DNA from: Streptomyces sp. WZ.A104
GTDB taxonomy: Bacteria; Actinomycetota; Actinomycetes; Streptomycetales; Streptomycetaceae
Direction: 5' to 3'
Assembly: GCF_002382885.1 (NCBI RefSeq)
Contig: NZ_NWVL01000028.1
Coordinates: forward strand, 1 to 64,000
DNA: 64,000 nucleotides
Position 1 is the first letter of the stretch; the number at the start of each line of letters is the position of its first letter. The notes beneath the pieces are model-generated. The model was given only the letters and a program-made list of their open reading frames with translations. It ran no database searches and was not told the origin of the DNA. This document shows positions 8,911 through 11,789 of this stretch, piece after piece. The translations under genes were made by a program, and so were the position numbers.

Positions 8911-10128
8911 TCACCACCGGACCGGAACCTTCCGTTCTCCGCGAACGAGCAGCCCCGACATCCGGTCCCCCGGAGCCCCGTCCGGGGCGAGCGTCGGGCA
9001 GCGGTCGAGCAGGGTGCGGAAGACGATGCGCCCTTCGAGGCGGGCCAGCGGTGCGCCCAGGCAGTGGTGGACGCCGTGACCGAACGCCAGATGCCCACGG
9101 TCCCCGGCTGCCGTACGGCGGATGTCGAAGCGGGCCGGGGAGGCGACGCGGGCCGGGTCCCGGCCCGCGTCGGCCAGGGCGATCAGGACCACTGCGCCCG
9201 CGGGGACGACCCGGCCGCCGATCTCCACCGGCTCGACGGCCACCCGGGGCGGTGCGGTCTCCACCGGGGCGTCGTAGCGCAGCATCTCCTCCACCGCCCC
9301 CGCCACGAGGCCGTCCAGGTCGCCGCGGAGCAGGGCGAACTGCTCGGGGTGGGCGAAGAGCGCGCGGACGCCCTTGCAGATGAAGTTCACCGTGGACTCG
9401 TGCCCCGCCAGAAGCAGCAGGAGAGCCATCGAGAGCAGTTCGTCCTCGCTCATCCGGTCCCCGCCCTCGTCGACCGTGTGGATCAGGTCGCTGAGCAGGT
9501 CGTCCCCCGGCGCCTCGCGCTTGGCGGCGATCAGCCCGTCGAGATACGGCACCGCCGCCGCCTGCGCGGCCCGCGACGCCTCGGCACCGGTGGGCGCGGT
9601 GATCTCGTCGGACCACTGCCGGAAGGCACCCCGGTCCAGGTCCGGAATGCCGAGCAGCTCACAGATGACGGTGATCCGGAGCGGGTAGGCGAGCGCGTCC
9701 ACCAGATCGGCCCGGCGGTCCTCGGCGGCGAGCATGTCGCTCACCAGCCCGTCGGTGACTTCCTGGATGCGCGGGGCGAGAGCGGCGACGCGGCGCGGGG
9801 TGAACGCGCGGGCGGCCAGCCGCCGCAGCCGGGTGTGGTCCGGCGGGTCGCTCAGCAGCATGTGGGCGTTGCCGGGGCCGTCCGTGGCGGGCGGTGCGTC
9901 GAGACCGGTGGCCAGATGGCCGTTGCGCCGCCAGTCCCGGCTGAGCCGGGGGTCGGTGAGCGCTTCCCGGCAGGCGTCATGGCCGACGACGAGCCAGAAC
10001 CGCTCCTCGCCACCCCCGCGGATCTCGTGGACAGGCCCGCGGGCCCGCAGCACGGCGTAGGCGGGGTAGGGATCGGACCCGAAGGCGGGATCGATGTCGA
10101 GGAGATCGACTGCGGCCGGGTCCGTCAC
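8911..10128 (-). CDS. Cytochrome P450 (flanking the RiPP precursor gene)
   Basis: A 405-residue class I bacterial P450 of the CYP105/107 type. The I-helix LLLAGHEST carries the usual acid/alcohol oxygen-activation pair, the ExxR motif is EMLR in VEEMLRYDAP, and the haem loop is FGHGVHHCLGAPLARLE. The start is GTG 10128 with GGGGAG six bases upstream; longer readings extend into a repetitive leader. It is divergent from the 28-codon precursor gene and may hydroxylate or crosslink its product, or be an unrelated neighbour. No ferredoxin gene is adjacent. Confidence 0.92.
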   Translation of the reverse strand: MTDPAAVDLLDIDPAFGSDPYPAYAVLRARGPVHEIRGGGEERFWLVVGHDACREALTDPRLSRDWRRNGHLATGLDAPPATDGPGNAHMLLSDPPDHTRLRRLAARAFTPRRVAALAPRIQEVTDGLVSDMLAAEDRRADLVDALAYPLRITVICELLGIPDLDRGAFRQWSDEITAPTGAEASRAAQAAAVPYLDGLIAAKREAPGDDLLSDLIHTVDEGGDRMSEDELLSMALLLLLAGHESTVNFICKGVRALFAHPEQFALLRGDLDGLVAGAVEEMLRYDAPVETAPPRVAVEPVEIGGRVVPAGAVVLIALADAGRDPARVASPARFDIRRTAAGDRGHLAFGHGVHHCLGAPLARLEGRIVFRTLLDRCPTLAPDGAPGDRMSGLLVRGERKVPVRW

Positions 10129-10380
10129 AACAGCTCCCCTGATGAGTCGTGTGAGTCGAGTGAGTCGTTGAGTTGAGTCGTGTGAGGCGTGGTGGTGGTC
10201 CGGCCCGTGAGCCCCAGCGGTTCGTCCGGCCACACTAGCCCGCCGAACTTCCTGCCGTAACAGTGAGTTGCCGAAATTTTTCCTGTAACTCTGTTTATAC
10301 GACGTCACATTGGGCCATGTTCCTACCGCTGACGACGGTGGTCACACCGTCGATGTTCCCCATGTACGAGGAGGTGTCTG
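10129..10380. other. Divergent promoter region of the P450/RiPP locus
   Basis: A 252-base gap with an unusually AT-rich stretch (about 10258-10312), the likely divergent promoter area, although no clean -35/-10 pair can be assigned. Close to the P450 start are four GAGTCG hexamers (10144, 10153, 10162, 10175), spaced 9, 9 and 13 bases, inside the P450 leader. Confidence 0.5.
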
Positions 10381-10467
10381 ATGGCTAAGCGCATTCTTTA
10401 CAAGGCTGCGAGCAAGTTCGGCTTCACGACCAAGGGAGCCGCCGGGGCCTACCCCTGGATCCCGTAG
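10381..10467 (+). CDS. Putative P450-modified RiPP precursor peptide (28 aa)
   Basis: ATG 10381 to TAG 10467 encodes 28 residues: a basic, amphipathic leader (MAKRILYKAASKFGF, then TTKGAAG) and an aromatic C-terminus AYPWIP with Tyr24 and Trp26. GAGGAGG ends six bases before the ATG, an excellent ribosome site. It lies between two P450 genes and is followed by a strong hairpin before the second one, the usual layout for abundant precursor and less abundant enzyme. Short precursors with C-terminal Tyr/Trp next to P450s are known for cittilins, biarylitides and tryptorubin-type atropopeptides, where the P450 makes aryl crosslinks. The assignment to that class is inferred; I do not recognise this exact core. 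Confidence 0.75.
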   Translation: MAKRILYKAASKFGFTTKGAAGAYPWIP

Positions 10468-10483
10468 TACGTCAGTCCCGATG

Positions 10484-10516
10484 ACGGCCCGGCCCCGCCT
10501 GTCGGGGCCGGGCCGT
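10484..10516 (+). terminator. Hairpin between precursor gene and P450 (attenuating terminator)
   Basis: A perfect stem of 13 bp (10484-10496 with 10504-10516), extendable to 14 bp with a 5-base loop, starts 16 bases after the precursor stop. It has no T-tract. It probably lowers read-through into the downstream P450 gene and protects the precursor mRNA. Confidence 0.7.
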
Positions 10517-10538: not shown

Positions 10539-11789
10539 TTGACCGAACAGACCATGCCCCGCCCCCCGGTCCGCACGGGCACGACGCAGGCCGGGCTGAT
10601 GGAGCAGTACGAGAAGGACCGCCTCGGCCATCTCCTGGCCTCGGTCGAGCGGCACGGCCCGGTGGTGGAACTGACCGAGGGCACCGTCCTCGTCAACGAC
10701 CCGGCCGCCGTCCACGACGTACTCCGGCGCACGAACACCGACTTCCTCGTCACCGGCAACATCCGGCGCGACGAGGTCAGCGGTGTGCGCGGCGACCCGG
10801 CCACCGAAGCGTGGATGCGGGGTCGGCGCGCCACCCAGAAGGGCATGTCTCCCCCAGCGCTGGAGGCCCACCGGGTCTGGCTGACGGAAGAGACCGGCCG
10901 ACTGTGCGACCGTTGGCAGGCCCGCTCCTCGGTCACCGACCCCGTCGCGGAGCTGGAGCAGCTGTCCGCCCGCTCCTTCGCCCGGTTCTGCTTCGGCACC
11001 CGCGACGCCGGGGCCGCCGCCGCACGCACCGGCGACCTGCTGAACTCGCTCACACCGCTGATCAGCAGCCCCTTCCACTTCCCGCCCGCCGTACGCCGCT
11101 TCCTGCCCCGCTACCGCCGGTCGGTCAGCGCGCAGAAGAAGCTTGAGGAGGAGCTGCGCCGGGCGCTCGACGGGCCAGGCGAGGGCGGACTCGTCGCGTC
11201 GCTGGCCACCGCCGGCCTGGACGGCGAGGCGACGGTCCGCATGCTCGTCTCCAACGGCCTCGCCTCCTACCGGGTCCCGGCGGCCGCCGTCACCTGGGCC
11301 CTGGTGGCACTGGCCCGCGAGCCGGACGTGGCCGAGGAGTGCGCGGCCGCCGTGGACCCGGGCGGCGGCGCCACCCCGGACATCCTGCGCTGGACGATCG
11401 CCGAGTCGCTGCGCCTGTGGCCGCCCAACTGGCTGATCCTGCGCACGGCCAACGGCCTGCAGACCTGCGGCGACTGGAGCATTCCGGCCGGCGCGGCGGT
11501 CATGATCTCGCCGTACGTCATGCACCGCACCGCACCGGTCTTCACCGACCCCTCGGCGTTCCGCCCGCACCGCTGGGCGTCGCTCCAGCCGGCCGCCGGG
11601 GAGTACCTCCCGTACGGGATCGGCAGCCGCTGGTGCGTCGGCAAGGCGCTGGCGGACCTGGAGCTGGCGACCGTCCTGTCCACCCTCGTGGCCCGGTTCC
11701 GCTTCACCGTGGAGCGCATGGACCCCCTCCCGGATGTACGGACGACGCTGCTCCCGGCCGGCCTCACCCTGGGGCTGCGGCCCCGCTGA
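10539..11789 (+). CDS. Cytochrome P450, candidate RiPP-modifying enzyme
   Basis: A 416-residue P450. The ExxR motif is ESLR in IAESLRLWPPNWLILR, and the haem loop is PYGIGSRWCVGKALADLEL with the thiolate Cys. The I-helix reads NGLASYRVPAAAVTWAL and lacks the usual acid/Thr pair, which points to an unusual reaction such as radical aryl coupling rather than standard hydroxylation. The start is TTG 10539 with AGGGG upstream; ATG 10554 is an alternative. It is only 71 bases after the precursor gene in the same orientation, so it is the most likely processing enzyme. Confidence 0.9.
   Translation: MTEQTMPRPPVRTGTTQAGLMEQYEKDRLGHLLASVERHGPVVELTEGTVLVNDPAAVHDVLRRTNTDFLVTGNIRRDEVSGVRGDPATEAWMRGRRATQKGMSPPALEAHRVWLTEETGRLCDRWQARSSVTDPVAELEQLSARSFARFCFGTRDAGAAAARTGDLLNSLTPLISSPFHFPPAVRRFLPRYRRSVSAQKKLEEELRRALDGPGEGGLVASLATAGLDGEATVRMLVSNGLASYRVPAAAVTWALVALAREPDVAEECAAAVDPGGGATPDILRWTIAESLRLWPPNWLILRTANGLQTCGDWSIPAGAAVMISPYVMHRTAPVFTDPSAFRPHRWASLQPAAGEYLPYGIGSRWCVGKALADLELATVLSTLVARFRFTVERMDPLPDVRTTLLPAGLTLGLRPR

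Follow-up and report, generated by a model that had tools for sequence, protein, structure and literature searches.

A probable P450-RiPP locus in Streptomyces with a conserved Tyr-Pro-Trp precursor between two cytochrome P450 genes

In the 64-kb window examined here, by which we mean the whole stretch of DNA that was analysed, a reading frame of 28 codons lies between two cytochrome P450 genes. The question that it raises is whether this frame encodes the substrate of the neighbouring enzymes, and if so, what each of them would do to it. We will argue that this is likely a three-gene P450-RiPP (cyptide) locus, in which the downstream enzyme, called P450-A, would join Tyr24 and Trp26 of the peptide, and the divergent one, P450-B, would probably oxidise the product further. 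Since the peptide gene is conserved with both P450 genes across species, its product is very probably a small cyclic peptide in which one P450 makes a bridge between Tyr and Trp, with the second P450 probably altering the peptide further.

The precursor gene and its conservation

The precursor gene is located at 10381..10467 on the forward strand, starts with ATG, and encodes the product MAKRILYKAASKFGFTTKGAAGAYPWIP. The conserved tail is GAYPWIP, in which Tyr24 and Trp26 are the putative crosslink partners. The sequence upstream of the ATG is AGGAGGTGTCTG, the 5′ flank of the frame carries AGGAGGTG, and the ribosome-binding site GAGGAGGT is found at 10368..10375 (+), where a GGAGG/GAGGA-type site is kept at the four closest loci. 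From the stop codon, 71 nt lead to the TTG start of P450-A at 10539. For comparison, both strands of the window were scanned for short ORFs of 18–45 aa preceded by a good ribosome site (n=26), and the precursor alone (1/26) has at least two Trp/Tyr among its last seven residues. The observation of this ORF is correct and well above chance. None of the NCBIfam models matched the 28-aa peptide, and among the part of the neighbouring genes that was covered no protease or exporter was identified.

The search of the genome collection with P450-A gave four close relatives, from S. sp. rh34 (locus L009), S. anulatus, S. durocortorensis and S. californicus, which are 91–95% identical and each preceded by the same peptide gene. 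Used as a query against 393 Streptomyces genomes, the 28-aa peptide itself was found in the genome of the window and in four others, two of them divergent. At the two divergent loci the identity of P450-A is 66% (L033) and 62% (L034), and the precursors there are MAKRMLFRAASKLGITTKGVAGAYPWIPSSR and MAKRMLFKAASKLGITVKGAVGAYPWIP, respectively. The GAYPWIP segment is invariant across the precursors, even where P450-A has fallen to 62% identity. The precursor of L033 has three additional residues (SSR) at its C-terminus, and the mature C-terminus is therefore uncertain. In all, the precursor stands directly 5′ of an orthologous P450-A at 7/7 loci examined, i.e. the window and at least six other Streptomyces. 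A precursor profile run over a partial sample of the phylum (396 genomes) gave no copy outside the window's own genome.

The variable columns of the precursor alignment are distributed over the three codon positions as 3/5/15, with the third position richest (chi-square p 0.005), and the pairwise dN/dS is 0.09–0.18. The gene is thus protein-coding and under purifying selection. These results confirm the original prediction of a 28-aa frame with a strong ribosome site and an aromatic C-terminus, as judged by the position of the ORF, its flank, and the conservation of both frame and peptide; the P450 gene 71 bases downstream, the divergent P450 gene upstream and the hairpin in the gap are likewise all present in the sequence. 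That prediction was to be abandoned if the peptide proved not to be conserved near homologous P450s; the peptide and P450-A were found to co-occur at every orthologous locus.

The gap between the precursor and P450-A contains a strong RNA hairpin (10484..10516, +), with a GC-rich 14-bp stem (10484–10497/10503–10516) and no T-run. The hairpin region has a minimum free energy of −41.9 kcal/mol (z −3.0) in the window, and the hairpin is also found in the close relatives. The same gap in L033 (z −1.7 for the whole gap) and L034 (z −3.2) holds strong hairpins of unrelated sequence. This element is probably an attenuator or an RNA-stability element that would favour the precursor over P450-A. Upstream of the precursor, at 10333..10352, there is a perfect 8-bp inverted repeat, CGACGGTG-GTCA-CACCGTCG, which is perfect also in L010, has one mismatch in L009, and is absent from L011 and L012; it is possibly an operator. 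Scans for sigma-70 promoters and terminators found nothing.

P450-A and its peptide-linked relatives

P450-A (10539..11789, +), the putative Tyr-Trp crosslinking macrocyclase, has the heme motif YGIGSRWCVG and an ESLR motif, while its I-helix reads ASYRVP in place of AGxET, such that the acid-alcohol pair is lost. Its top NCBIfam model is the RiPP crosslinker ApyO (E 4.9e-44), with a score of 150.7 that lies below the equivalog cut-off of 525. ApyO is the aminopyruvatide P450, which forms a C−C bond in YLY (PMC13192836); the aminopyruvatide precursor and cluster differ from those considered here.

The remote relatives of P450-A, at about 30–34% identity, fall into two groups, with and without an adjacent peptide. 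One uniform rule was applied at all loci, which asks for a peptide beside the P450 that is short and basic and whose C-terminus is aromatic. By this rule, a peptide is found beside every member of the P450-A clade and at 0/12 of the other non-orthologous P450 loci tested. The candidate upstream peptides end in LAGFYKY at L040, GGRYHWATPTG at L036 and SGRYPYWPYQLR at L039, and in two tandem GGRYIHFD units at L019. In a tree of 17 P450s, the peptide-linked and peptide-less enzymes are split at 100/99, with P450-A grouping with four other peptide-linked P450 types (clade 100/99). The canonical I-helix AGxE-T/S-T is replaced in all peptide-linked P450s (ASYRVP, GGHGVP, AAQSAP, AGYGVP), and the acid-alcohol pair is retained in nearly all relatives without a peptide. 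The corresponding Fisher value, 1.6e-4, takes no account of common ancestry and serves as a description only. Taken with the conserved peptide/P450-A pair, the presence of remote peptide-linked P450s in the clade of P450-A supports the reading of a compact P450-RiPP locus that had been put forward originally.

It can be noted that the I-helices of P450-A and of the L033, L034, L036, L039, L040 and L019 enzymes have a proline in common (VP or AP), which replaces the acid-alcohol pair. A proline-containing I-helix of this kind is possibly a diagnostic mark of the peptide-linked RiPP P450 clade, and the loss of the pair may reflect a mechanism of phenol/indole coupling rather than hydroxylation.

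Two of the candidate precursors are worth describing in their own right. At L019 (G240:C26) the peptide MAKVLRALGAKSKLGGRYIHFDTAAAPQSRMGGRYIHFDA is encoded about 270 nt 5′ of the P450, and with GGRYIHFD repeated in tandem it may be a P450-RiPP precursor with more than one core, in which the motif is Tyr-x-His. At L039 (G328:C57) the peptide MKRTRRLVARLVGRKRVSGRYPYWPYQLR is encoded about 206 nt 5′ of the P450, and the four aromatics of its YPYWPY segment suggest more than one crosslink.

Two other readings of the peptide have to be weighed at this point. It could be a true P450-modified RiPP on which P450-A acts differently, by hydroxylation, by bonding an aryl group to the backbone or to Ile/Pro, or by forming more than one bond. 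The cores that accompany the relatives of P450-A do differ (FYKY, YHW, YPYWPY, YIH), and P450-RiPP enzymes vary in the bonds that they make; laurentirubin B carries as many as four modifications (PMC11450843). Against this, the Tyr-x-Trp spacing and the invariant Tyr, Pro and Trp agree with the tripeptide that is crosslinked in micitide 982, and the absence of the acid-alcohol pair would speak against ordinary hydroxylation, so we regard such a deviation as improbable. Far less probable still is a regulatory reading, in which the short ORF would serve the P450 gene as a leader peptide or uORF instead of supplying an enzyme substrate. Its place directly 5′ of P450-A with a hairpin after it would suit such a role, but GAYPWIP at the C-terminus is the best conserved part of its amino-acid sequence, and the peptides beside related P450s, though different, are aromatic too, as expected of substrates. 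Crosslinking of a precursor by P450-A is the reading that we retain.

The second P450

We now turn our attention to P450-B, a CYP107L/PikC-like monooxygenase and putative second tailoring enzyme with a canonical AGHEST I-helix. Its best gene call is 8911..10128 on the reverse strand; the longest ORF, reaching 10308, is a mechanical over-extension. The matches in the PDB are CYP107L-type/PikC enzymes with E values of about 1e-124 to 1e-127, a group for which we take CYP107L to be the proper label. In the genus sample, the best four matches of P450-B (69–100%) all lie at precursor-bearing loci, and the next ones, at 65% or less, are widespread. P450-B is upstream and divergent in the window and its close relatives; the L034 copy lies on the downstream side in convergent orientation, still adjacent. 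That the adjacency is kept through this rearrangement indicates a joint function, and the suggestion that a second P450 could act on the peptide is strengthened by it.

The alternative is that P450-B is merely a chromosomal neighbour with no part in the biosynthesis of the peptide. At L009 the precursor and P450-A are intact and no P450-B is present within 5 kb, and CYP107L-type P450s with 56–65% identity to P450-B are common in Streptomyces (62/393 genomes above the cut-off). The copies at the RiPP loci, including that of L034, nevertheless constitute a clade of their own (100/100), apart from these widespread enzymes, the adjacency has survived a change of both side and orientation, and no P450-A homologue stands beside the related copies found elsewhere. 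We therefore consider a bystander role unlikely, although it deserves more weight than the two readings of the peptide discussed above. P450-B probably belongs to the locus as a tailoring enzyme, one that appears optional because it is missing within 5 kb at L009 and the L033 contig ends just past P450-A.

Known systems and the proposed mechanism

Among the closest parallels is micitide 982, in which one P450 (MciB) crosslinks Tyr-Pro-Trp between Tyr C6 and Trp C5′, and whose natural core, 26a, consists of Tyr/Pro/Trp units (PMC13383641, PMC13250620). Tyr-Pro-Trp stands at the crosslink site there and at the putative one here, so that the two are alike in this core motif. The two synthesis accounts of micitide 982 contain no second P450, whereas the present locus has P450-B. 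The expectation that the Tyr-Pro-Trp core would match no known member is accordingly not borne out. A literature search for AYPW with P450 gave nothing relevant.

In the broad sense the locus has the features of a cyptide, with a short precursor carrying C-terminal aromatics beside a P450 of a peptide-linked lineage. Lapparbin, rubrin and roseovertin are reportedly cyptides from the survey of Nam et al. (JACS 2023), which is said to comprise 19 groups; they come from a short precursor with a P450 macrocyclase next to it, as is proposed for this locus. The bond in lapparbin is Tyr C6–Trp N1′. Its natural core is 32d, not the proline compound 32a, so that a residue other than Pro probably occupies the middle position. 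Identity with lapparbin was rejected on account of this difference. The locus may already stand in the lists of the 2023 mining surveys, including these 19 groups.

Atropopeptides and biarylitides had also been named as kin, and neither published definition fits. Atropopeptides/bitryptides have a KSLK-type leader (KSLK, RSLK, ESLK, KSRK, KPLK, PSLK) and Trp at core position 2 (xWxxxx / xWxxWx) (PMC11450843). None of the six motif variants occurs in the precursor, and the core AYPWIP has Tyr at position 2 and Trp at 4; membership in this class was rejected on both grounds. Biarylitides have a five-residue precursor encoded by an 18-bp gene (PMC13417212), and were rejected since the precursor has 28 residues and not five. 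The two-enzyme arrangement has a counterpart in laurentirubin B (lau; LauB1 + LauB2), where a second P450 modifies the product after the crosslinking P450 (PMC11450843). This system, like the one proposed here, is a two-P450 RiPP; unlike it, laurentirubin B is an atropopeptide with an xWxxxx core and a KSLK leader.

On this basis the following mechanism can be proposed. The strong ribosome site would drive synthesis of the 28-aa precursor, with the downstream hairpin probably holding expression of P450-A below it. Docking on P450-A would involve the N-terminal part of the precursor, a basic amphipathic helix that extends from residue 1 to about residue 18. A fusion of precursor, linker and P450 obtained by reading through the TAA at L009 was predicted with AlphaFold2 from an eight-row alignment, and because its pLDDT is only 51, it lends no support to this docking. 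P450-A would then couple the Tyr24 side chain oxidatively to that of Trp26, spanning Pro25 and removing two hydrogens for each bond, to give a strained Tyr-x-Trp biaryl ring. The leader would be cut off by a housekeeping protease encoded outside the locus, leaving something like AYPWIP, to which P450-B, where present, probably contributes another oxidation. It is quite possible, and here we are more tentative, that the product is a doubly processed Tyr-Pro-Trp macrocycle, in which the biaryl ring made by P450-A is followed by a site-specific oxidation or a second ring from the co-inherited CYP107L-type P450-B. Such a pairing would define a family of cyptides made by two P450s and distinct from the atropopeptides.

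The precursor and its linkage to both P450s are well supported, and the locus is small and easily expressed. Its Tyr-Pro-Trp core is invariant and a second P450 is inherited along with it, and it would allow a direct test of the way in which a macrocyclase and a hydroxylase P450 combine on a single peptide. Every peptide-linked P450 seen has lost the acid-alcohol pair of the I-helix, a simple mark in the sequence that may help to tell RiPP-crosslinking P450s from ordinary ones.
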